From Flavivirga aquimarina (GTDB taxonomy: Bacteria > Bacteroidota > Bacteroidia > Flavobacteriales > Flavobacteriaceae), in the NCBI RefSeq assembly GCF_030540835.1, contig NZ_JAUOEK010000024.1, forward strand, positions 1 to 64,000: a stretch of 64,000 nucleotides of DNA, written 5' to 3'. The notes under the pieces were generated by a model that was not told the DNA's origin, made no database searches, and worked only from the letters and a program-made list of their open reading frames with translations. Positions 24,977-44,101 of this stretch are shown here, in pieces. Position numbers and translations under genes: made by a program. Position 1 is the stretch's first letter, and each line of letters opens with the position of its first letter.

Positions 24977-25024
24977 TTTACAGTTAAAAAATATTAAAAA
25001 GGATTCTGGTTCGTTTTAACAGAT

Positions 25025-25090
25025 TACTCATTTTTTTTCCAACAAATTACTAATAAGGTGAAAATTTCATTTTATTGCATAGTATATTTG
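25025..25090 (+). promoter_or_regulatory. candidate LytTR-controlled promoter of 25108
   Basis: Half-sites TACTCAT (25025) and TACTAAT (25048) precede a TATATTTG -7 element (25083-25090) by 35 bp from the second half-site. No TTG lies at -33, as expected for an activator-dependent promoter. About 75 bp of this region is nearly repeated before 27388. Confidence 0.5.
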
Positions 25091-25107: not shown

Positions 25108-27276
25108 ATGAAGAAACAGCTTTTAATCCTACTTGTTGTAATATTTTCTCAAAGTGTCATTGCTCAAAAAATTATTGAAAACCCAGAATATGGATTATCT
25201 TCTTTTCCAGGGGTAATAACTAAAATAGAATTAGTAGATACCACTACAGTTTTACATTTTCATATTAAAAAAAGATCTGGTCGAAGAATAACTATTCCTA
25301 GAAAAAGTTATATAGAAGAAGTAGACAGTGGTAATAAATTATTTATGACTAAAGCTGTTGGAGTCGAAATAGGTTCAAATACTCTACCTGTATCTGGAGA
25401 GCTTGTTTACGCATTACATTTTCCTAAATTAAGAGCTAGTGTAAAAACCATTGATTTTAGAGGAGGAATTAATGATAGTCATTGGGCTGTTTATGATATT
25501 ATCGTAAATGAAGAAAGTGACGCTTTTGTATTACCAAAAATACTTCGGGGAAATTGGATGTTAATAGATGGGAGTAATCGTTGGGACTATGGTTTTTATA
25601 ATAAAAATGCTATAATAAATAGAGGTGTCTGGAATTATAAATCGGTTAAGGTAAAAGGAGAAAAATATACAATTACTTTAGAAAGAAACGGCAATTTAAA
25701 AACAGTTTATGCTAAGCTTAACAAAAATGGACAGGTAAATTTTGGTATTGAACCAAAATTGCTAAAAACATATAGTTTAGAAAAAGTATATAACCCCAAT
25801 TATAAATTAGAAAATGATACGCCATATGAAGCGGCATCTTTATTTCAATTAGATTCAGCTACCTATGCTGGAGTTGTTAAAGGTTATACAAATAGGGCTA
25901 AAGGTGTAAAAGATATTCCAATAATTATGCAGGACTGTTTTACACTTAAAAGAGATCATTATAAAGTTAGGATAGCAGACGATGGTAGTTTTTCAATAAA
26001 ACTTCCCGTAAGTTACCCGCAGAATATAATAGTAGTTTTACCTTACGGTAATGAAAAGGTTTATGTAGAACCAGGAAAAGAAACATTCCATTTAGTAGAT
26101 GGAAATAATACGCTTTTTATGGGAGATTGTGCTATGTTAAATTCAGGTTTACGAGATATGGAATCTATAGATTCTTTTGGTAATAGGGAAATTATGATGG
26201 AATTAGTGGAAATGTCTGTTGGGAACCCTGATGATTATAAAAAAGCATGCTTTGAACTTAGAGATAAAGAAAATAATGCACTTAAAGAATTAAATAAGAA
26301 ACAGTTTTTTAGTCGTAAAGCACTTCAAATAAAAAAAATAGGGATTGAGTTTTCGATGATAACAACTGTTTTGGCTTATGAACGCTATAGAAAATATATG
26401 AAGGCTAAGATGGATAAGGATAAAATTGGTATTAAAGATTTTAAGGTTGAAGCATCGTTTTATAATTTTATTTCAAAAGAGGTATTAGATAATCGTTTGA
26501 TGGTTCTGGAACCGCTCCAATTTACTTCTTTTACAAGAAATTTAACTTCTGCTTATGCTTTTAGAAATAAAGCAGAGAACTATACAGAAGATAATCCGAA
26601 GGCACTTTTTGGAAAATCAGATAGTGTTATAGAAAATAATATTAAAGAATTTTTTGGGATGACAGAAGGTTTTGCATTCGATTATATTAGACTTCATAGA
26701 GCAACAAAAATATTTACAGATAGCTTGAAAATATATACAAACTTAGAAGTGAAAAATATTCAACAAGAAATTAAAGATCCATTTTTATCAAAATATATAG
26801 AAGTTGTTAATAATAAAGCTAAAGAGATAGCAGAAGCAAATAAGTTAAAAAAGGGGTATCACATTAATGTCGTAAAAAAAGCAAAAGATGAGGACTTAGT
26901 TGATGCGATGCTTAAAAAATTTAAAGGAAAAGTGGTTTATATCGATTTTTGGGCAACCTGGTGTGGAGCATGCATTCCTGCAATTAATAGAATAAGGCCT
27001 CTTAAAGAAGAAATGAAAAATGAAGATGTTGTATTTTTGTATATAACAAATCAAACGACTCCTGAAGTGCAATGGAAAAAGCTTATCGTAGATATTAAAG
27101 GAGAACACTATAGAGTCTCAAAAGACGAATGGAATTACTTAGAACAGAAGTTTAACATTAGAGGAATCCCGCATTATGCATTGGTAAATAAACAAGGTGA
27201 AATTGTAAACCCTAAGATGGAGCATAACTCTAATGCTACATTAAAAGCGATTTTTAAAACTGAAATGCAGAAATAG
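25108..27276 (+). CDS. secreted TlpA-like thioredoxin protein with GxW module
   Basis: A 722-residue periplasmic or surface protein with signal peptide MKKQLLILLVVIFSQSVIAQ. The N-terminal beta-rich domain (about 21-140: ENPEYGLSSFPGVITKIELV) is shared with 27388 and 41525. A GxW module follows at about 143-225 (LPKILRGNWMLIDGSNRWDY). The middle (240-600) is helical. The last 116 residues are a TlpA/thioredoxin domain with FWATWCGAC (C619, C622) and the cis-proline GIPHY. It should be a thiol reductant or oxidoreductase acting on envelope proteins or on its own N-terminal part. It stands first in the block, with a promoter resembling that of the next gene. Confidence 0.85.
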   Translation: MKKQLLILLVVIFSQSVIAQKIIENPEYGLSSFPGVITKIELVDTTTVLHFHIKKRSGRRITIPRKSYIEEVDSGNKLFMTKAVGVEIGSNTLPVSGELVYALHFPKLRASVKTIDFRGGINDSHWAVYDIIVNEESDAFVLPKILRGNWMLIDGSNRWDYGFYNKNAIINRGVWNYKSVKVKGEKYTITLERNGNLKTVYAKLNKNGQVNFGIEPKLLKTYSLEKVYNPNYKLENDTPYEAASLFQLDSATYAGVVKGYTNRAKGVKDIPIIMQDCFTLKRDHYKVRIADDGSFSIKLPVSYPQNIIVVLPYGNEKVYVEPGKETFHLVDGNNTLFMGDCAMLNSGLRDMESIDSFGNREIMMELVEMSVGNPDDYKKACFELRDKENNALKELNKKQFFSRKALQIKKIGIEFSMITTVLAYERYRKYMKAKMDKDKIGIKDFKVEASFYNFISKEVLDNRLMVLEPLQFTSFTRNLTSAYAFRNKAENYTEDNPKALFGKSDSVIENNIKEFFGMTEGFAFDYIRLHRATKIFTDSLKIYTNLEVKNIQQEIKDPFLSKYIEVVNNKAKEIAEANKLKKGYHINVVKKAKDEDLVDAMLKKFKGKVVYIDFWATWCGACIPAINRIRPLKEEMKNEDVVFLYITNQTTPEVQWKKLIVDIKGEHYRVSKDEWNYLEQKFNIRGIPHYALVNKQGEIVNPKMEHNSNATLKAIFKTEMQK

Positions 27277-27303
27277 CTTTATTTCTAAATCATTAAGGCC
27301 AAT

Positions 27304-27368
27304 TACTCATTTTTTTCCAACAAATACTAATAAGGTAAAAATTTCATTTTATTAGTTGAGTATATTTG
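27304..27368 (+). promoter_or_regulatory. candidate LytTR-controlled promoter of the GxW/LytSR operon
   Basis: TACTCAT (27304) and TACTAAT (27325) are 21 bp apart, and TATATTTG (27361-27368) starts 36 bp after the second half-site. The operon downstream encodes the LytTR regulator itself, so positive autoregulation is plausible. Confidence 0.55.
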
Positions 27369-27387: not shown

Positions 27388-28542
27388 ATGAAAAAACGCT
27401 TCTTGCTTTTATCTATTATGTTTTTGTGTAAAAGTATTGTTGCCCAAAAAGTAATTAATAATCCAAATTATATTAGTAAGAATTTTTCGGCCAATGTAAC
27501 TAAGGTAGAGGTTACAGGTACCGAAACAATACTTCATTTTAATATGAAAGGCCCCATAGGAAGCAAGTTTTTAATAGCCAAACTAACTTATATTGAAAAT
27601 GCTGCTGTTAACGGAAAACGATTGTATATAACAAAATCTGAAGGCGTAAATATATCTCAATGGAATACCATGTCAGATTCTGATGAAGTTAGATATAAGT
27701 TATACTTTCCACCTTTAGAAAAAGATGTAAAAAAAATTAATTATGGTGAAGCGAACCCTAAAGGCCATTGGTTTATTTATAAACTAGATATTTCTAAAAA
27801 CGGAGAGCGTTTTTTAAATCCTTTTAACAAAGCGAGCCTTAATGGTTGGAAAGTATCTGTAGGTTACCCCAGCCCTGAAGCTGCTAATGCTGCTAAAATT
27901 GAAGCATTAAATGAATATAAAATAAACGCAACAAGTCTTAATAATCCTTCATTTGGTAATCCTTCAAGTAGTTATATTGAAACGGGAGAAAACATGGTGC
28001 TTCCAGAAGAATTGCCGAAAGAATTTTTTGGAAATTGGTATGATAAATACGGTACGTTAATGTTAATTACAACACCAGATTATATAGTCTCAAATTCTAG
28101 AATTGAATATTATAGAAGTATTCAAAGAAATGGAGAGAATAAATTTGTTATTAGGTCTACGAGAGGCGGTTTTGAAGTTTTAAATTTAGATAGCAAAACG
28201 ATCACTATAAGAACGGATAAATTAAGTACCTTAAAAAGAAAACCCATTGATAATACAGTGCCTTTATCTATTAAAGGAGACTGGTTACATTGGGGAAAAA
28301 TCAAAAAAATTAAGGTGACTGATAATTATTTTTATAATGATGATAAAGGTGTTTTAGGAGTTAACGATATTGTAAAGAGCCGTATTGACCATGTTGCAAA
28401 ATCTGATTATGGAAATATAATTTGGTTTGTTTTATATAATGAAGGAAACTATAATTTGTATAAAGCAAGTAAAATAGATGGCGAGTTTGTATTAAGACCC
28501 AGAGGATTTGTTAACGCTAGATATAAAAAGGTTAAAAATTAA
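27388..28542 (+). CDS. secreted GxW-module protein lacking thioredoxin domain
   Basis: A 384-residue secreted protein with signal peptide MKKRFLLLSIMFLCKSIVAQ. Residues 21-150 match the N-terminal domain of the TlpA-like proteins at 25108 and 41525 (NNPNYISKNFSANVTKVEVT, then TILHFNMKG). After a linker come two GxW modules: VLPEELPKEFFGNWYD to about 290 and PLSIKGDWLHWGKI to the end. There is no CxxC domain. The kinase gene starts 11 bp after its stop, and the kinase sensor carries the same two modules, so this protein is the best candidate for a secreted partner or ligand-binding companion of the kinase. Its molecular function is not known. Confidence 0.8.
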   Translation: MKKRFLLLSIMFLCKSIVAQKVINNPNYISKNFSANVTKVEVTGTETILHFNMKGPIGSKFLIAKLTYIENAAVNGKRLYITKSEGVNISQWNTMSDSDEVRYKLYFPPLEKDVKKINYGEANPKGHWFIYKLDISKNGERFLNPFNKASLNGWKVSVGYPSPEAANAAKIEALNEYKINATSLNNPSFGNPSSSYIETGENMVLPEELPKEFFGNWYDKYGTLMLITTPDYIVSNSRIEYYRSIQRNGENKFVIRSTRGGFEVLNLDSKTITIRTDKLSTLKRKPIDNTVPLSIKGDWLHWGKIKKIKVTDNYFYNDDKGVLGVNDIVKSRIDHVAKSDYGNIIWFVLYNEGNYNLYKASKIDGEFVLRPRGFVNARYKKVKN

Positions 28543-28552
28543 TCGTGTTCAT

Positions 28553-29902
28553 TTGAAACTCAAAAAAGGATTTTTTTTATTTCTATTATTTATTCCCAAA
28601 TTAATATTGGGTCAAGGTGTAAGTGTTTTACCTTCTTATCTTCCAGAATATGTTTTTGGTACTTGGGTAAATGATAAAAATGAAATTGTACTCATTATAT
28701 CCGAAGATTATATTGTTATTCAAAATGAGTTATATGGTTATAACAACATTGTAAAAGAAAAAGAGAAAATAAATTTTACTTGTGTACATAATGATAATGT
28801 ACAATACATAAATGTAACAAAAATAAATGCATCTAATATACTTTTAGATGAAGGTTTTAAAATAACTCAACTCAATAAAATAGCAGTTAACAAAACAAAT
28901 AAATTACCTAAATCTATTATTGATAATTGGTATTCATTAAAAAATAAGATTGAACTTAAAGAAAATGAAGTTTTATTTTCTGATAATTCTTATAAGATAG
29001 ATTATGTGACTTCATCAAATGGGGTTAATTATCATATAATAGTATATAATTCTGGCGAATATAGCCTCTTATATAATTATATAAACGATAATGGTCATTA
29101 TTTAAATGCAAATTTTCTAAAAACAATTGTTTTTGAGAAGGCATCTTTTTTTAGAAAATACAAGTCAATATTAATCACATTGTTTATAGCTTTAGTTTTA
29201 TTAATTAGTTATTGTTTAATAAAATGGAAGATTACTATAGCTAAAAACAAGGAGGTTACGAAACGCTTGTTAGTAGAAATGCAACTTAAGAGCATTCGGT
29301 CTCAAATGAATCCTCACTTCCTGTTTAATGCACTAAGCGCTATTCAAAATCTTATAAATAAGGGTGATAACGATAAAGCTAATCATTATTTAACTGAGTT
29401 TTCACAACTTATGCGGTTAACTTTAGATAAAAGTGAAAAAGGTTTGGTGCCGTTGTATGATGAAATTGAATCTATAAAAAAATATTTAGAATTGGAATGC
29501 TTACGTTTTCCTTTTGAATATAGAATATACGTAGATTCAAAAATAAATAAGCATAACATTGAAATTCCTGCGATGCTTATACAACCATTTGTCGAGAATG
29601 CTATTATTCACGGATTGAATGAAAAAAAAGGAGAAAAACATGTGTCAATTGACTTTAAAATAGATGAAAAAAACTTGATATGTTATATTATAGATAATGG
29701 TATAGGTATAAATAAGGTACAGGCTAAAAAAACTTCAAACTTAAAGCGAGAGAAATATGGCTTGAAATTAGCAAAAGATCGTATTAATTTAATTAATGAA
29801 AATTATAAAACCAATGCGATAATCAAAATAACTGATATTTCTGATAGTGAAAACGAAAAGACAGGAACAAAGGTTGAAATTTCAATGCCTTTAAAGTATT
29901 AG
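28553..29902 (+). CDS. LytS-type sensor histidine kinase with GxW-module sensor
   Basis: I start it at TTG 28553 (449 residues, MKLKKGFFLFLLFIPKLILG signal/anchor), 11 bp after the previous stop; an upstream TTG at 28508 would overlap that gene. Two GxW modules face the periplasm (about 24-100: VLPSYLPEYVFGTWVND; about 103-185: LPKSIIDNWYSLKNKI). A membrane helix (ILITLFIALVLLISYCLI) and a short linker lead to a His_kinase domain with QMNPHFLFNAL (phospho-acceptor H255) and HATPase-like ENAIIHGLNE and DNGIG motifs. It should phosphorylate the LytTR regulator 30 bp downstream. Homology of its sensor to the preceding secreted protein is visible by eye. Confidence 0.88.
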   Translation: MKLKKGFFLFLLFIPKLILGQGVSVLPSYLPEYVFGTWVNDKNEIVLIISEDYIVIQNELYGYNNIVKEKEKINFTCVHNDNVQYINVTKINASNILLDEGFKITQLNKIAVNKTNKLPKSIIDNWYSLKNKIELKENEVLFSDNSYKIDYVTSSNGVNYHIIVYNSGEYSLLYNYINDNGHYLNANFLKTIVFEKASFFRKYKSILITLFIALVLLISYCLIKWKITIAKNKEVTKRLLVEMQLKSIRSQMNPHFLFNALSAIQNLINKGDNDKANHYLTEFSQLMRLTLDKSEKGLVPLYDEIESIKKYLELECLRFPFEYRIYVDSKINKHNIEIPAMLIQPFVENAIIHGLNEKKGEKHVSIDFKIDEKNLICYIIDNGIGINKVQAKKTSNLKREKYGLKLAKDRINLINENYKTNAIIKITDISDSENEKTGTKVEISMPLKY

Positions 29903-29932: not shown

Positions 29933-30685
29933 ATGATAATTAAAAGCATCATAATTGATGATGAAGTTCACAACCTAGAAAATCTAAAAAGGTTATTAGA
30001 AAAGAATTGCCCTAATGTTGAGGTAGTTGCAATGGCATCCTCTGCAGAAGAAGGTTTAGAACTCATTATAAATCAAGTACCCGACTTGGTGTTTCTAGAT
30101 ATTGAAATGCCTAATAAGAACGGATTTGAGATGCTGGAATCTATTGGTAATGTAAATTTTGAAATCATTTTTGTTACAGCATACAACCAATATGTGCTTC
30201 AAGCTATTAAATCGTGTGCGTTAGATTATTTAATGAAACCCATATCAATTTCAGAATTAAAAGAAGCAGTTTTAAGAGTGTCTCAAGTAGTTACTCATAA
30301 AAGAGAAAACCAGAAACTAAAGGTGCTCGTTGATAATTTAAAAAGTATTAATCAACCTAAAAAAATAGCATTACCTACTACAGAAGAACTTCACTTTGTG
30401 TCTATTGATGAAATAGTAAGATGTAAAGGCGAAAATAATTATACCATGTTTTTTTTAACAAATGGGACTTCCATATTGGTATCTCGTACCTTAAAAGAAT
30501 GGGACGATTTGCTGTCTTCACATCAATTTATTAGAACCCATCAATCGCATTTAATTAATAGTATTCATGTAAAATCTTATGTAAAAAAAGATGGAGGCTA
30601 TATTTTAATGAACGATGGGAGCATGGTAAGTGTTTCTAAACATAAAAAAGAACAAGCCCTAAGTAAGCTAGCATCCGTAAAATAA
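29933..30685 (+). CDS. LytTR-family response regulator
   Basis: A 250-residue regulator. The receiver domain (1-120) has the acidic pair IIDDE (8-11), phospho-acceptor D56 in VFLDIEMPNK, a T in FVTAYNQYV and K in YLMKPIS. The C-terminal LytTR DNA-binding domain (about 148-245) has the usual IVRCKGENNYTMF, FIRTHQSHLIN and DGSMVSVSKHKK blocks. It is the partner of the kinase just upstream. LytTR proteins bind two direct repeats about one to two turns apart, and such repeats with 21-23 bp spacing occur at four promoters of this block, which are its likely targets. Confidence 0.93.
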   Translation: MIIKSIIIDDEVHNLENLKRLLEKNCPNVEVVAMASSAEEGLELIINQVPDLVFLDIEMPNKNGFEMLESIGNVNFEIIFVTAYNQYVLQAIKSCALDYLMKPISISELKEAVLRVSQVVTHKRENQKLKVLVDNLKSINQPKKIALPTTEELHFVSIDEIVRCKGENNYTMFFLTNGTSILVSRTLKEWDDLLSSHQFIRTHQSHLINSIHVKSYVKKDGGYILMNDGSMVSVSKHKKEQALSKLASVK

Positions 30686-30778
30686 ATTCTAATAAGATAT
30701 ACCAGTTACTAAGTAAATAATGGTAATAGCTAATTGTGGCAGTATTTATTGATTGATATGTAATATGTTTATGTTGTA
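30683..30778 (+). repeat. duplicated promoter segment, copy 1
   Basis: About 95 bp match 32542-32636 at roughly 88% identity (shared ACCAGTTACTAAGTAAATAA and TGATTGATATGTAATATGTT). The segment contains TACTAAG (30707) and AGCTAAT (30728), 21 bp apart, and a TATGTTTA -7-like element at 30764, 36 bp after the second half-site. In copy 2 it drives a receptor gene; here it precedes only a 24-codon frame. Confidence 0.7.
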
Positions 30779-30797
30779 ACATTTTAAAGAACTAAAC

Positions 30798-30935: not shown

Positions 30936-32435
30936 ATGAAAATCATCAAAATCACCTTAATATTAAATATCCTTTTTATTTCATTTTGCTGTACACAAAA
31001 AAAAACATTTAATGATAAAAAACAAGTTGTCGTTACAGGGAAAGTCCATCATTATAATGGAGAAAATGCCAAGTTGTATTTTATATATTCTCAACCAGGA
31101 GTATTAGGGTCAAGGGAATTAATAGACATTGATGGAGAAGGAAACTTTGAATATAAAATTGATGGATATATCCCTTTAGACGCCGTGCTATTAGAGCAAA
31201 ACACATTTGCAAACATTAATTTCATTTATCATCCTGGAGACAGTATACATATAGAGTTTGAAGCAAAAGAAAAAAAAATACCACTTTTAAAAACGGTAAA
31301 GTTTAGTGAAGATGGAAATAAAACCAACAATCAAATAATTAATTTTCAAATTTTACGAGAAGAAAACAATCTCGGTTATGGAGCCATTAATCAAGCTGAA
31401 TCATACAAGAAAAACGTTACAGATTTTATCCTCGAGATGAATTCAGTTAAAGAAAAACAACTAAAAATGTATAAGACATTTGTTGAAGAACAATCTCCAA
31501 GTGATGAAGCAAAAAATTGGGCGAAATTATTTGCATTAGAAACTTATTACTATTTTTTAGATAATTATGCAAATGGAAAGGAGAACCTTCCGGATAACTA
31601 TTCAGATTATAATAACGAAATTCTTCCTATTACTCTTGATAATTTAATTTGTTGGAGCGTTATTGAAGGTAGAATCACTAGTGTCGTTTATTTAGATTTG
31701 TTTCCGAATTTTTCAAAGCAAAATACAGACCTTAATTTAATATCTTATTTAACTGACAAAACATTAAAATCAGATTCATTATTTGTCAATTTTGTTCGAG
31801 AAAATTATACAGATAATCTACAACGTCAGCTTATATTTAGTGGTCTTTATAAAAATTTATTCGGTATGACTTCGCTAGAAAGTTACCAAAGGAATCAAGA
31901 TGTTTTGAAAACGGAGTTAAATACTCCTTTCATTTCTAAAGCACTCTATGAGAGTTTTGAAAAGACTATTGATTATTTAAAAAGTCCAAAAGAAAGAACT
32001 GCTTTAGTTTTGAAAAAAATGAAGGACTCCCCTATTGAAGAAACTTTTAATAAGATTCTTGAAGACAATAAAGGAAAAGTTATTTACATAGATTGTTGGG
32101 GAACTAATTGTGTACCTTGCATTAAAGAAATGCCAGATTCAAAGTTACTTATGTCTAAATTTAAAGAACAAGATGTACAATTCGTATACCTGTGTCTTAG
32201 TGGAGATGAAAAAAATTGGAATAAACTTTTGTCAAAATTCCAACTTGATGGAGGCCAACAATACCTATTAGATAATAAACAAGATCAATCTTTAAGAGAC
32301 ATTATGCAATTCAATGGAATTCCATATCATATTCTTATTGATAAAAATGGTTCTATTATTGAAAGTGGAAATCAGCTTGGACCAAGCATGAAATCTACAG
32401 AAGTAAAAATAGCAGAATTAGCAAGTGAATCATAA
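30936..32435 (+). CDS. TlpA-like thioredoxin lipoprotein
   Basis: A 499-residue envelope protein. N-terminal MKIIKITLILNILFISFCC ends in a Cys pair that suits lipidation. Residues about 30-120 form a beta-rich DUF4369-like domain (VTGKVHHYNGENAKLYFIYS), the middle is helical, and the last ~130 residues are a TlpA-like domain with IDCWGTNCVPC (C392, C395) and the cis-proline GIPYH. The active-site dipeptide Val-Pro and the additional Cys before it are unlike its neighbours (WCGAC, WCGPC). It lies between the LytTR gene and the receptors on the same strand, and is probably part of the same envelope redox system. Confidence 0.85.
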   Translation: MKIIKITLILNILFISFCCTQKKTFNDKKQVVVTGKVHHYNGENAKLYFIYSQPGVLGSRELIDIDGEGNFEYKIDGYIPLDAVLLEQNTFANINFIYHPGDSIHIEFEAKEKKIPLLKTVKFSEDGNKTNNQIINFQILREENNLGYGAINQAESYKKNVTDFILEMNSVKEKQLKMYKTFVEEQSPSDEAKNWAKLFALETYYYFLDNYANGKENLPDNYSDYNNEILPITLDNLICWSVIEGRITSVVYLDLFPNFSKQNTDLNLISYLTDKTLKSDSLFVNFVRENYTDNLQRQLIFSGLYKNLFGMTSLESYQRNQDVLKTELNTPFISKALYESFEKTIDYLKSPKERTALVLKKMKDSPIEETFNKILEDNKGKVIYIDCWGTNCVPCIKEMPDSKLLMSKFKEQDVQFVYLCLSGDEKNWNKLLSKFQLDGGQQYLLDNKQDQSLRDIMQFNGIPYHILIDKNGSIIESGNQLGPSMKSTEVKIAELASES

Positions 32436-32541: not shown

Positions 32542-32636
32542 ATAAATTCTAAGAAAATTATACCAGTTACTAAGTAAATAATGTTAATGGCTAATTGTGA
32601 TAGTATTTAATGATTGATATGTAATATGTTTATCGT
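32542..32636 (+). promoter_or_regulatory. duplicated promoter segment, copy 2; promoter of the 32669 receptor
   Basis: TACTAAG (32568) and GGCTAAT (32589) are 21 bp apart, and TATGTTTA (32625-32632) begins 36 bp after the second. Geometry is identical to 27304 and 30707. It is the copy of 30683-30778 that retains its gene. Confidence 0.55.
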
Positions 32637-32668
32637 GTATTAACATATATTCATCAATCAATCAACAC

Positions 32669-35431
32669 ATGAAATACTTTTTATTACTACTAACAGTTTT
32701 AGTTGCAACAAACACTTTTTCTCAATCAAATACTTTCGAAATTTCAGGAACTTTAACTTCAGAAGATGATAAAATACCTTTAGAATCTGCTACGGTTTAT
32801 TTGCAGCGAGTAAAAGACAGCTCGTTAATTACCTATACTATTTCAGACCAAAAAGGGAGGTTTCTTTTAGGAAATAAAATTGGCGATAATCAAGCTAATC
32901 TTTATGTGTCTTATGTTGGGTATCAAACATATCAAAAACTAATTAATATAAATAAATCAAAAATAGATTTAGGAAATATTAGTCTTAAAATAAGTACAAA
33001 TGCTTTAGATGAAGTCATTGTTAAATCTCAAGCACCAATAACCATAAAAAAAGACACTTTAGAGTTTAATGTAAAATCTTTTAAAACTAAAAAGGATGCT
33101 AGTATTGAAGACTTGTTAAAAGAATTGCCCGGAGTTGAAGTTGATCCAGATGGTAAGATAAAAGTAAATGGTAAAGAAGTTAATAAAGTATTAGTTAATG
33201 GGAAGCCTTTTTTTGGCAATGACCCCACAATTGCTACAAGAAATTTATCTAAAGAAATTATTGAAAAAATTCAGGTATCAGATACTAAAACAGATGAAGA
33301 AGCTTTTGCAGGAGAAGAAGGAGATAGAAGCAACAAAACAGTTAATCTGGTTGTTAAAAAAGAGAATAATAAAGGTGTATTTGGGCGTTTAGCAGCGGGA
33401 GCAGGAACAGATAAAACTTACGAATATGCAGGTATGTATAATAGATTTAATGATGATTTGCGATTTAGTGTCTTAGTAGGTGGAAATAATATTAATTCAC
33501 CTGGATTTAGTTTTGGGGAAATTCGAAAAATGTTTGGAGGATCATCATCATATAATATTAATAAACAAGTATTTAATTATGGGAATGATGGTATTATTAC
33601 TTCCAGGAATGTAGGCTTAAATTATGTTGATGATTGGGGAAAGAAAGCAGATGCATCAACAAATTATTTTGCGTCTAATTCCGACTTAGAGAATATTGTG
33701 AAATCTGAGCGTGAAAACATACTGCCAGATAGTCGTTTTTTTACAAACTTAAACTCTAAAACAATTTCCAATACAGAAAGACACAGTACCGAAACTAAAG
33801 TTAAAATTAAGGTAGATTCTACATTGTTAATTACCATAGAGCCGAAGTTTAGGTATATAAAAACTACCAATGACTTTAATAGCGATGAGAAATCTTTTGA
33901 TGAAAATAGCGTGTTGATTAATGAGTCTACAAGTAAATCGTTTAAAGAAACTACAGAGAATTTCTTTTCTAATAATATTAATTTAACCAAACGATTAGGA
34001 ACTAAAGGGGCGTTTTTTAAATTAGATATTTTTAATAGAAGTACTAAAACTGATACCGAGAATATTTTAAATAATCAAGTAGATATTTATGGTAATGGAC
34101 TGGAAACTATTACTCTAAATCAATTAAGAGAAGTTGAAGGTAATGATAATACGTTTATTATATCTTCTTCTTACAGATTACCTATTAAAGGAAAAGAATT
34201 ATCATTAGATATAGGATTTGGGTATAGAAATAATACACAAAAAAATATTAGAAACTCATACGATTTTAATGACTTAACACAAGATTATGAAACCTCAATC
34301 AATGAAGACTTAAGTTCAGATTTTGAGTATGCTAATATAACCAAAACCCCAAAGCTTACTTTAGAGTATAAAAAGAAAAAATGGTCTGGTTCTTTTAATG
34401 CTGATTTTGTTTTTAGAACCTTAGAGAATACCGACTATTTAAGACCAGAATTTAATTTGAAACGCAATTTTAACGCGGTAGTAGTAAAATACCGATTAAA
34501 CTACAGAAGCCCTAAATCATCTTTAGGTTTAGGCTATAATTTAAGTAATAATGCACCTAGTTTATCTCAATTACAAACGTTTATAGATGTTACAAATCCT
34601 TTAGATATTATAGTAGGTAACCCTGAGTTAAAGCCATCAAATCGACATAACTTTTATATGTATTTCAATAAAAACAATTTTCAGAAAGGGATTGGGTTTA
34701 ATACTTATTTAAGTTCTGATATTCTAAACAATAATGCAGTTGCTAAAAGATCAATTAATGAAGATCTTATTAGAGAAACCACATATACTAATATAGATGG
34801 AGGTTACACATTTCAAGCGTATATGGATTTTAATAAAAAAGTTAAAATAGATAGTTTAAAAACGGTTCAGCTAAACTTAGGATTTAATCCAAATATAAGA
34901 AGGTCTGTAAATTTTAATAATGATGTACAATATGCAAGTCTGTCAAAAACACTTTCACCCAATTTAGGTGCCAGATTCATGTGGAAAGATGTTGCAGAAT
35001 TTGGAGTAAATTATAGTTTATCATTTACCAATAATACTTTTGATACTGATGTTTTTGACAATCAAGAATTCTCATATCATTCTATGTTTATTAGAACAAT
35101 AAACTATTTCAATAAAAAATTTGATTGGAGAAATGAAATACGCTATAATTATAACCCCGATATTGCAGATGATTTCGAAAAAAGTGCATGGTTTTGGAAT
35201 TCCACATTGGCATATTCTTTCATGAAAGACAAAGCCACTTTAACCTTAAAAGCATACGATTTGCTTAATCAAAATACTAATGCGAGAAGAATAGCGAATC
35301 AAAACTTTATAGAAGATAGACAAAGTACGGTTTTACAAAGGTATTTTATGCTAAGCTTTAGTTGGAAATTTAATACATTAGGAAAAGCTGGAGAGGTTAA
35401 AGGAGGGAACGGGTACTATATAGTGCGTTAA
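32669..35431 (+). CDS. PF14905-type outer-membrane beta-barrel receptor, copy 1 of tandem pair
   Basis: A 920-residue outer-membrane protein with signal peptide MKYFLLLLTVLVATNTFSQ, a carboxypeptidase-regulatory-like domain (FEISGTLTSEDDKIPLESAT, about 24-105), a plug-like region (LLKELPGVEVDPDGKIKVNG and VLVNGKPFFGND, about 145-235), then a beta-barrel. The barrel terminus MLSFSWKFNTLGKAGEVKGG is followed by a short tail. It is highly similar to the next gene, especially at both ends, and to 9955-12618. Genes of this class usually serve as TonB-linked uptake or surface receptors; no SusD-like partner is present. Expression from a copy of the LytTR-like promoter ties it to the two-component pair. 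Confidence 0.9.
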   Translation: MKYFLLLLTVLVATNTFSQSNTFEISGTLTSEDDKIPLESATVYLQRVKDSSLITYTISDQKGRFLLGNKIGDNQANLYVSYVGYQTYQKLININKSKIDLGNISLKISTNALDEVIVKSQAPITIKKDTLEFNVKSFKTKKDASIEDLLKELPGVEVDPDGKIKVNGKEVNKVLVNGKPFFGNDPTIATRNLSKEIIEKIQVSDTKTDEEAFAGEEGDRSNKTVNLVVKKENNKGVFGRLAAGAGTDKTYEYAGMYNRFNDDLRFSVLVGGNNINSPGFSFGEIRKMFGGSSSYNINKQVFNYGNDGIITSRNVGLNYVDDWGKKADASTNYFASNSDLENIVKSERENILPDSRFFTNLNSKTISNTERHSTETKVKIKVDSTLLITIEPKFRYIKTTNDFNSDEKSFDENSVLINESTSKSFKETTENFFSNNINLTKRLGTKGAFFKLDIFNRSTKTDTENILNNQVDIYGNGLETITLNQLREVEGNDNTFIISSSYRLPIKGKELSLDIGFGYRNNTQKNIRNSYDFNDLTQDYETSINEDLSSDFEYANITKTPKLTLEYKKKKWSGSFNADFVFRTLENTDYLRPEFNLKRNFNAVVVKYRLNYRSPKSSLGLGYNLSNNAPSLSQLQTFIDVTNPLDIIVGNPELKPSNRHNFYMYFNKNNFQKGIGFNTYLSSDILNNNAVAKRSINEDLIRETTYTNIDGGYTFQAYMDFNKKVKIDSLKTVQLNLGFNPNIRRSVNFNNDVQYASLSKTLSPNLGARFMWKDVAEFGVNYSLSFTNNTFDTDVFDNQEFSYHSMFIRTINYFNKKFDWRNEIRYNYNPDIADDFEKSAWFWNSTLAYSFMKDKATLTLKAYDLLNQNTNARRIANQNFIEDRQSTVLQRYFMLSFSWKFNTLGKAGEVKGGNGYYIVR

Positions 35432-41524: not shown

Positions 41525-44101
41525 ATGAGAAAAAATGTATTCATCCTTTTATTGTCATTAATTTGTACTTTTTCATTTGCACAACAAACAATTGAAAATC
41601 CAGATTATAGTTATAGTACCGTTCCAGGAGATTTAACTAAAATAGAAATTTTAGAAGATGCTACAGTATTGCATTTTCACATTAAGTACAAACCGAAATA
41701 TTGGATTTTTATACCTAAAAAAACGTTTATAAAAAACGTCGATTCAGAAGAGAAACTTTTCGTTACTAAAGCTGAAGGGATTCCTTTGTCCAAACGTTTT
41801 TTCATGCCAGAGTCAGGTGAAACTAGGTATAAATTATATTTTCCTAAATTAAATAAACCTATAAATAAAATTGATTTTGGAGAAGCCAATGATGGAGGTA
41901 CTTGGTTTATGTATGATGTAATTATTAATGAGGATGAAAATGATTTAATGTTGCCAAGAGTGTTGCGTGGAGATTGGTTATTAACAGACGGTAGTAACCG
42001 TTGGGATTATACTTTTAATCCAAAAAATGCGATAGTAGATAAACGTGTTTGGACTTATAAGTCGGTTGAAAATAAAGGAAAGACATATAAAATAACTCTT
42101 GAGAGTTCTGGGGAATTTAAAATAGTTTATGGAAAGCTAAGTAAAAAAGGGAAAGTAGATTTTGGGTTAACCCCTAAAGCATTACAGACTTATAGTTTAG
42201 AAAAAACAAATAACCCTAAATTTAAGTTAGAAAATGATGAGGTTTTTAAAGCATCTAATATTCTTAATAAAGATTCAGCAATCTATTCTGGTGTAATAAA
42301 AGGTTACACAGAAAGAGTCGGTATGAAAACAGGAATGGTCTATGTTAACAATGTTTTTAAAGGAAATCAAGAATCTAATTTGGTTAAAATTTCTGCAGAT
42401 GGTAGTTTTTCAATTAAACTTAATTTGAGGCACCCTCAGTTTGTTCTTGTAAGAATAGCAGGCCTTAATGAGTTTGTTTTTGTAGAACCTGGAAAAGAAA
42501 CATTTCATTTTATAAATGGTAAAAAATCGCTTTTTATGGGAGATTGTGCTCAAGTAAACTCTGATTTATATGCAATGAAAGATATACGATATTTTGATTC
42601 CCAATCAGCAATAGACAGTATAGGGATAACATCTCCTGAAGCATACAAAAAAATGTGTTTTGATGCTATGGATGAAGAGTTGAAAGCAGTTAAGGAGCTT
42701 GCAGAAAAACAATTTATTAGTAATAAATCACTTCAAATTAAAAAGATAGATATAACATATGGAGCCTTTGAAGAAGCATCCGGTTATAATATGTATAGAG
42801 GGAGTTTAGAAAGAAGAAATAAATCTGCTAAAACAGAAAAACAAAAAAAACCTTTTAAAGCATTTGAAGTTGATAGGTCTTTTTTTGATTTTGTAACAAC
42901 AGAGTCTATTAATAATAAGTTAGCTGTCTTATCTACAAATTATAATTATTTTATAAACAGATTAATGTATGATAATGTTTTTAGAGCAGATAATGCAAAA
43001 CGACCAACTATTGCTGAGCGTGCAGATTGGATACAAAGGCAAGGGAAAGAATTGTCATTAGAAGAACTAGAGATGGTAGAAGCGAGTAAAGAAATAGAAA
43101 CACCTGAAATAGTAATAAAACAAGAGAAATTTAGAAAAGCTCATGGAAACGTTGAGCAAACTTTTTATAAAAAATATGCTAAAGAATATCAAAGTTTTTC
43201 AAAAGAGAACAAAGAAAAACCAAAATTTAATCATTATGTTTTGAATTTAGCTGATTATGTGACAACCAAAGGCGATACTCTTTCTGATGAAGAGATTAAA
43301 ATGGTTGAAGCTGTTAAAATATTAAAAACAGCTATTGAATTAGAAAATGAAAAAAGGTTTAATGAAATATATGGAAAAGTAAGAGGAGAATTTTATAAAA
43401 AATATAGTAACAGTATTTCAAGTCTAAATAGGCATAACTATTATTCTAAAATAGATAAAAATATTAAAGATTATTTTGGCGATTCAGATGTTTTTCTATA
43501 TGATATTATAGCTTTTCAAAGAGCGAATAAAAGATTAGAAGATTACAATGTGTATTCAGATGATGAGCTAAAAACTATTCAACAAAAAATTAAAGATCCC
43601 TTTCTGGTGACGTATATGGCTGCTATAAATGAGGATACAAAAGAAAAAATTGAATTAAATAAAACAAAAGGAGGTTATAATGTCAATGCAGTCGAAAATA
43701 CTGAAGGAGATGAGTTGTTTAATGCAATGATTAAAAAGTTTAAAGGAAAAGTAATTTATGTCGATTTTTGGGCTACTTGGTGCGGGCCATGTAAATCTGG
43801 AATTAGTAGAATTAAACCTTTAAAAGAAGAAATGAAAAATGATGATGTTGTGTTTCTTTATATAACAAATCAAACATCTCCAGAAGGTACTTGGAAAAAC
43901 GCTATTGCAGATATTAAAGGAGAACATTATAGAGTGACTAAGGATGAATGGAATTATCTTACAGACAAATTTAAAATATCGGGAATCCCTCATTATACTT
44001 TAGTTAATAAAAAAGGAGAGATTGTTAAGCCTAAAATGGGGCATAACTCAAACTCAAAACTTAAAACTATTTTAAAAAAACAAATTAAAAGTGACATATA
44101 G
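41525..44101 (+). CDS. secreted TlpA-like thioredoxin protein with GxW module, long form
   Basis: An 858-residue homologue of the 25108 protein. Signal peptide MRKNVFILLLSLICTFSFAQ, shared N-terminal domain (ENPDYSYSTVPGDLTKIEIL), GxW module (LPRVLRGDWLLTDGSNRWDY, about 141-225), a longer charged helical middle (about 240-735) and a C-terminal TlpA domain with FWATWCGPC (C753, C756) and GIPHY. The insertion in the middle is Lys/Glu-rich (EKADWIQRQ-like, EEIKMVEAVK) and partly duplicated (ELEMVEASKEIETPEI vs EEIKMVEAVKILKTAI), suggesting an internal repeat. It is likely exported to the periplasm or surface. The 79-bp upstream gap has no clear promoter. Confidence 0.85.
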   Translation: MRKNVFILLLSLICTFSFAQQTIENPDYSYSTVPGDLTKIEILEDATVLHFHIKYKPKYWIFIPKKTFIKNVDSEEKLFVTKAEGIPLSKRFFMPESGETRYKLYFPKLNKPINKIDFGEANDGGTWFMYDVIINEDENDLMLPRVLRGDWLLTDGSNRWDYTFNPKNAIVDKRVWTYKSVENKGKTYKITLESSGEFKIVYGKLSKKGKVDFGLTPKALQTYSLEKTNNPKFKLENDEVFKASNILNKDSAIYSGVIKGYTERVGMKTGMVYVNNVFKGNQESNLVKISADGSFSIKLNLRHPQFVLVRIAGLNEFVFVEPGKETFHFINGKKSLFMGDCAQVNSDLYAMKDIRYFDSQSAIDSIGITSPEAYKKMCFDAMDEELKAVKELAEKQFISNKSLQIKKIDITYGAFEEASGYNMYRGSLERRNKSAKTEKQKKPFKAFEVDRSFFDFVTTESINNKLAVLSTNYNYFINRLMYDNVFRADNAKRPTIAERADWIQRQGKELSLEELEMVEASKEIETPEIVIKQEKFRKAHGNVEQTFYKKYAKEYQSFSKENKEKPKFNHYVLNLADYVTTKGDTLSDEEIKMVEAVKILKTAIELENEKRFNEIYGKVRGEFYKKYSNSISSLNRHNYYSKIDKNIKDYFGDSDVFLYDIIAFQRANKRLEDYNVYSDDELKTIQQKIKDPFLVTYMAAINEDTKEKIELNKTKGGYNVNAVENTEGDELFNAMIKKFKGKVIYVDFWATWCGPCKSGISRIKPLKEEMKNDDVVFLYITNQTSPEGTWKNAIADIKGEHYRVTKDEWNYLTDKFKISGIPHYTLVNKKGEIVKPKMGHNSNSKLKTILKKQIKSDI

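Follow-up and report, generated by a model that had tools for sequence, protein, structure and literature searches.

Genetic organization of the locus

The window, a stretch of 64,000 nucleotides from a Flavobacteriaceae genome (contig C104) with Flavivirga jejuensis as a genus mate, includes a gene cluster in which three adjacent genes, named here S, K and RR, encode a secreted protein, a LytS-type histidine kinase and a response regulator, respectively (Table 1). Other genes of the cluster code for TlpA-family proteins, named by the coordinate of their starts, and for an outer-membrane β-barrel protein.

Table 1. Location of the genes, sensor modules and predicted regulatory sites of the cluster.
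Feature	Coordinates	Strand	Characteristics
Gene cluster	between der (23672) and TPM-domain gene (45728)		
Predicted RR site and -7 box before TlpA 25108	25027..25090	+	repeat period 23
TlpA 25108, TlpA-family thiol-disulfide protein	25108..27276	+	S-type N-domain, one M3 module
M3 of TlpA 25108 (LRGNW)	25528..25788	+	
Predicted RR site and -7 box before S-K-RR	27306..27368	+	21-bp direct repeat
S	27388..28542	+	384 aa; secreted, signal peptide, no lipobox; N-terminal domain common with TlpA proteins, then tandem lipocalin-like modules (predicted)
S module M1 (FFGNWYDKYGTL...)	27997..28245	+	among the S and K modules, the one best conserved across six orthologues
S module M2 (SIKGDW...)	28252..28539	+	
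K, LytS-type histidine kinase	28553..29902	+	probable start; signal peptide, periplasmic dimodule sensor, one TM, His_kinase PF06580, HATPase_c
K sensor module M1 (VFGTWVND...)	28628..28885	+	
K sensor module M2 (SIIDNWYS...)	28895..29152	+	poorly modelled
RR, response regulator	29933..30685	+	receiver and LytTR DNA-binding domain
Predicted RR site and -7-like box (TAnnTTTA) before TlpA 30936	30709..30771	+	
TlpA 30936, TlpA-family lipoprotein	30936..32435	+	GxW module not detected; predicted to belong to the regulon
Predicted RR site and -7-like box (TAnnTTTA) before OMP 32669	32570..32632	+	
OMP 32669, outer-membrane β-barrel OMP_b-brl_3 with CarboxypepD_reg-like plug	32669..35431	+	predicted regulon member
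TlpA 41525, TlpA-family protein	41525..44101	+	one M3 module; not preceded by a predicted RR site
M3 of TlpA 41525 (LRGDW)	41948..42208	+	

The start codon of K is probably the TTG at 28553, which was preferred because it fits the orthologues better, provides a signal peptide and lies 10 nt past the S stop codon; the start originally listed, a TTG at 28508, overlaps the S gene and was rejected. K matches PF06580 at E 3e-24 and includes a HATPase_c domain as well, and the motifs RSQMNPHFLFN, PFVENAIIHGL and DNGIGI, which supply the histidine of NPHFLFN and the N and G boxes, are invariant in three orthologues. A regulator with receiver and LytTR domains adjoins K in all six genomes that harbor it, which places the pair among the LytS/LytTR systems. 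A Treponema locus considered as a possible relative was discarded since the match is confined to the kinase domain.

Family- and phylum-wide profile searches detected the K sensor in six genomes of four genera, all of them marine Flavobacteriaceae (G000, G004, G007, G278, G803 and G812; three of the 12 genomes of the genus plus three from elsewhere in the family). The gene order is S, K, RR in every one of them, and no genome with K but without S was found by these searches. The gap between S and K is 18-24 nt in five genomes and 10 nt in the window if K starts at TTG 28553. Since no TlpA gene was found in the neighborhood examined around the trios of G278, G803 and G812, the trio itself can be considered the unit.

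Residues 19-140 of S resemble the N-termini of TlpA 25108 and TlpA 41525, defining a shared β-rich domain for which no match was found in Pfam. The presence of this domain raises the possibility that S has a job of its own, although the G812 version of S is a shorter lipoprotein that lacks it. The TlpA homologues also vary in length: one from F. jejuensis (L034:10297-11529) consists of 410 amino acids without the thioredoxin end, and one from G004 (L036:9053-10900) has 615 amino acids and no N-domain.

A comparison of neighborhoods revealed that in most relatives the same chromosomal place is occupied by one TlpA-family gene of the 41525 type and little else. The region of the window between 38421 and 45547, which includes an ABC transporter, a GntR gene, TlpA 40471, TlpA 41525 and gene 44207, shows 92-99.6% protein identity to the F. 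jejuensis locus L034, while the adjoining S, K and RR are just 46-83% identical to their F. jejuensis counterparts. This contrast looks like the product of recent transfer or of recombination at a hotspot.

The K sensor and the C-terminal half of S are built from related modules

The GxW motifs that the initial annotation had quoted for K and S were located in both proteins. BLASTP comparison of the K sensor with the C-terminal half of S showed 25% identity over 160 residues (E 4e-7, single comparison), and a profile alignment with hhalign, using three orthologues on each side, gave 97% probability and E 2.5e-11 over 139 colinear columns that span both modules. On the basis of these alignments the two regions are judged to be colinear homologues, each composed of tandem modules of about 85 residues. 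In a phylogenetic tree the K sensors form one clade (95/91) and the S proteins another (96/94), the two being sisters with the TlpA dimodules outside, which indicates one old duplication followed by long co-existence.

With three-sequence profiles the internal repeat was weak in K (E 5e-5 between its two modules) and was not detected in S, and the relation to the TlpA module was weak too; deeper profiles, with 18-19 rows per module type, established both. The two modules of K define types M1 and M2, and the single TlpA module a third type, M3. Comparison of M1 to M2 with 18-row profiles yielded 89% probability and E 2.2e-6, with a score of 35.5 versus at most 22.2 in 150 column shuffles, while M1 to M3 gave 95% and E 3.2e-8, and M2 to M3 93% and E 4.2e-7. 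All three scores were far above those of 150 shuffled profiles and also above those of reversed profiles, and therefore the single TlpA module is a member of the family as well. In other genera single TlpA proteins carry M1, M2 and M3 in that order, so that the modules can be considered parts of one family.

These results agree with the initial annotation, which had described a second module copy in both K and S, a related module in the TlpA proteins (LRGNW and LRGDW), and at least six modules within 17 kb. The six are two in K, two in S, and one each in TlpA 25108 and TlpA 41525. Its main proposal, that the kinase sensor is built from the same module as the secreted protein, is borne out by BLAST, the HMM-HMM comparisons, the duplication tree and the fold predictions described below.

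In an alignment of 15 modules the G and W of the GxW motif are invariant, and so is a lysine near the module end, which may correspond to the basic residue that in lipocalins and calycins lies on the last strand and packs on the conserved tryptophan. Searches with the modules against Pfam, NCBIfam and PDB sequences returned nothing significant. DUF7043/7044, DUF3300 and Lipocalin_8 were considered as the module family and rejected, their matches being at E 0.002 to 0.1 and with one or two members only. Outside the family, the phylum-wide profile search returned only marginal matches (E 0.002-0.01, L090-L095), possibly distant GxW modules or chance.

Two loci of other genera (L076:6940-12369 and L079:8430-14929) include a TlpA gene with three GxW modules beside LytS kinases and LytTR regulators. 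The periplasmic sensor of these kinases differs from that of K, and the L079 TlpA frame is split after about 270 amino acids.

Predicted fold of the modules

AlphaFold models, generated from alignments of seven rows for S and four for K that drew on sequences of the window and its related loci, predict that residues 201-384 of S fold as two small antiparallel barrels with a pLDDT of about 90. The K sensor model is weaker, with a pLDDT of about 57-78 for M1 and of 39-65, mostly below 60, for M2. A joint alignment in which TlpA M3 rows were spread across both S modules was excluded from folding. As for the structural comparison proposed in the initial annotation, the S barrels are modelled with confidence, K M1 moderately so, and both are predicted to be lipocalin-like, but the model of K M2 is poor, and for this reason the fold of K M2 rests on its homology to S M2.

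The structural matches were Tp0751 for S M2 (Z 10.1) and K M1 (Z 9.2), BT_0869 for S M1 (Z 6.7), and the two barrel domains of the D-aminopeptidase 1EI5 for the tandem pair (Foldseek E 7.7e-5; Z 8.5, 161 residues, rmsd 5.2), several of the fold-match Z values being below 8, which may mean a common arrangement and nothing more. The predicted S M1, S M2 and K M1 also align to BT_0846, avidins and fatty-acid-binding proteins. DSSP assignments at the start of the modules in the S and K models (HHH-EEEE) show a helical turn followed by strand A, which carries the G-x-W. Calycin barrels usually open with a helical turn followed by GxW, which gives the motif a structural reason. We therefore predict that the modules are small lipocalin/calycin-like barrels. 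In this they would be like those of BT_0869 and BT_0846 (from Bacteroides), Tp0751 and 1EI5, the last resembling the tandem pair, but no sequence relation to the modules was found for any of these proteins, and none is a kinase sensor.

Candidate regulatory sites and predicted regulon

The region upstream of S includes, in all six genomes, the direct repeat NCT[CA]A[TG]-N15-NCT[CA]A[TG], which has a 21-bp period and lies 80-83 bp before the S start. The usual distance from the repeat to the -7 box is 28-29 bp; five of the genomes have a TAnnTTTG box that starts exactly 29 bp past the repeat, and in G803 the box is off the standard distance. The -7 consensus of Bacteroides and Flavobacterium is TAnnTTTG (PMC2483708), and the sites bound by LytTR regulators consist of two 9-11 nt repeats with spacers of 11-13 nt (PMC4847170). 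Autoregulation through such repeats is documented in LytTR systems (PMC6193735). The repeats before S, which have the geometry of LytTR boxes and are conserved in geometry and position, are candidate sites for RR.

The same layout of repeat and box precedes three other genes of the window (Table 1), the outer-membrane protein gene of G278, and two further TlpA genes, each from a different relative. A scan of the window's own genome with the full pattern, which was derived in part from the window's own promoters, returned eight matches, four of them inside 7.6 kb of the window; the other four (C28, C47, C89 and C183) are at chance level. The full pattern was absent from about 20 homologous loci without the trio, the Markov expectation being 0.4 per Mb per strand. 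A matrix trained on the five other genomes only ranked the window S promoter first, with a score of 18.6 versus 13.4 for the next. When the promoter pattern was made stricter, the sites of the window escaped it owing to a single base that follows the second repeat. Taken without the -7 box, the repeat shows no enrichment in the window (4 occurrences versus 2.35 expected), and for this reason the regulon is argued from position, conservation across genomes and phasing. On these grounds we predict that S is co-regulated with TlpA 25108, TlpA 30936 and the outer-membrane protein gene. Two pairs of promoter stretches are near-identical (25020-25090 with 27300-27368, and 30686-30780 with 32550-32640), as if the promoters had been duplicated together with the regulatory site.

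Since the M3-bearing TlpA 41525 has no such promoter site, K is linked to S in the first place, and a link of K to every M3-bearing protein is not supported.

Proposed mechanism

We propose that S, K and RR constitute a feedback two-component cassette in which S modulates K by way of the shared barrels, and we give this proposal about an even chance of being correct. S would be exported to the periplasm, where K would sense through its M1 and M2 barrels and phosphorylate RR. The phosphorylated RR would bind the 21-bp repeats and presumably switch on S-K-RR together with the adjacent TlpA and outer-membrane genes. The newly made S would then feed back on K at the same site, either by pairing with its homologous barrels or by taking up its ligand, and would thereby determine the threshold and end the response, in the manner of CpxP with CpxA. 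In its most probable form the cassette would involve a direct contact between S and K through the M1 barrels. The stronger version, a homotypic co-sensor in which the barrels of the secreted lipocalin-like twin bind those of the K sensor and adjust its threshold, with synthesis of the twin driven by the same regulator, is put forward tentatively. Mean identity across the six orthologues is 57% for S M1, 45% for K M1 and 43% for S M2; the higher conservation of S M1 would be expected of a contact surface but could instead reflect a ligand site, and does not decide between the two.

The initial annotation had suggested that the kinase reads the same ligand as the secreted protein or competes with it for the same partner. 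This may be so, and its likelihood is raised by the fixed order of S, K and RR in six genomes and by the predicted co-regulation of S with two TlpA genes and the outer-membrane protein gene. The barrels of S and K could share a small molecule or peptide without any contact, S being an effector or scavenger and K the sensor of the inducer. The paralogy of S and K, their predicted co-regulation and the predicted fold are consistent with this explanation, as lipocalin-like proteins often bind small hydrophobic molecules. There is also a precedent in BlaR1, whose sensor is structurally homologous to class D β-lactamases (PMC5957439). On the other hand, modules of only about 85 residues are comparable in size to minimal barrels like BT_0869 and Tp0751, which makes a deep pocket doubtful, and most of the residues invariant in S M1 (FGNWYDK.GTL..I.TP.Y.V) vary in K M1, so that we consider a shared ligand without contact rather doubtful.

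It is improbable that the duplication provided raw material only, with K having recruited the domain of a neighbor and the two proteins now sensing unrelated things and being linked merely as an operon. The age of the duplication, the divergence of S and K to 25% identity, and the different sensors of the LytS kinases found beside other GxW TlpA genes would be compatible with it, but their strict co-occurrence and adjacency in six of six genomes, in four genera and at different chromosomal sites, argue for a functional pair. Least likely of all is that K watches the TlpA and outer-membrane machinery, its barrels binding TlpA M3 modules or their clients and reporting thiol-redox or outer-membrane-protein status: the homology of M1, M2 and M3, the predicted RR site before two adjacent TlpA genes and the outer-membrane protein gene, and the three-module TlpA genes that adjoin LytS/LytTR genes in two other genera point that way, but three of the six trios have no TlpA gene in the neighborhood examined, the M3-bearing TlpA 41525 has no site, and comparison of orthologues revealed no conserved cysteine in K.

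Relation to known systems

LytS/LytTR systems are common. Like those of the YpdA/YpdB, BtsS/BtsR and AgrC/AgrA type, the locus described here has a PF06580 kinase beside a receiver-LytTR regulator, and candidate direct-repeat DNA sites with a period in the 20-24 bp range. It differs in that the sensor is predicted to be a pair of periplasmic lipocalin-like barrels and the first gene of the operon codes for a secreted paralogue of the sensor. A self-controlling cassette of S, K and RR with a shared DNA switch was not found described in the open-licence literature, where the only relevant precedent found for a lipocalin-like sensor in a kinase is that of the VtrA/VtrC co-component systems. K would thus add a type of histidine-kinase sensor, tandem lipocalin-like barrels, that lies outside every domain library searched.

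In VtrA/VtrC the partner is a lipocalin-like protein (PMC9214523), and these systems and ToxR/ToxS share with S and K the adjacency of genes coding for a lipocalin-like extracytoplasmic protein and a membrane signalling protein. In them, however, the partner is anchored in the membrane and there is no kinase, the receptor being a membrane HTH transcription factor with a different periplasmic fold; K, in contrast, is a histidine kinase whose regulator is a separate protein. BlaR1 and the class D β-lactamases provide another case in which the sensor domain of a receptor has homologues in a family of secreted proteins, but that sensor works by enzymatic acylation, its output is a metalloprotease and not a kinase, and the fold is unrelated. 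S and K can be considered a clean natural case in which a sensor and its secreted partner arose as copies by duplication and are predicted to share one promoter switch, and the division of work between a sensor and its periplasmic twin becomes directly testable with this pair. They also provide a way to approach the TlpA and outer-membrane barrel genes of marine Bacteroidetes, which are poorly understood.

The proposed feedback resembles that of CpxP, an accessory periplasmic protein that inhibits the kinase CpxA (PMC4160245). In CpxP/CpxA-CpxR, as is proposed for S and K, the system controls the production of a periplasmic accessory protein that acts on the sensor kinase. The components are different: CpxP is α-helical and not homologous to the CpxA sensor, and CpxA is not of the LytS type, while S is predicted by AlphaFold to be all-β apart from its signal peptide and a linker helix of low confidence, and can be considered a copy of the sensor itself.
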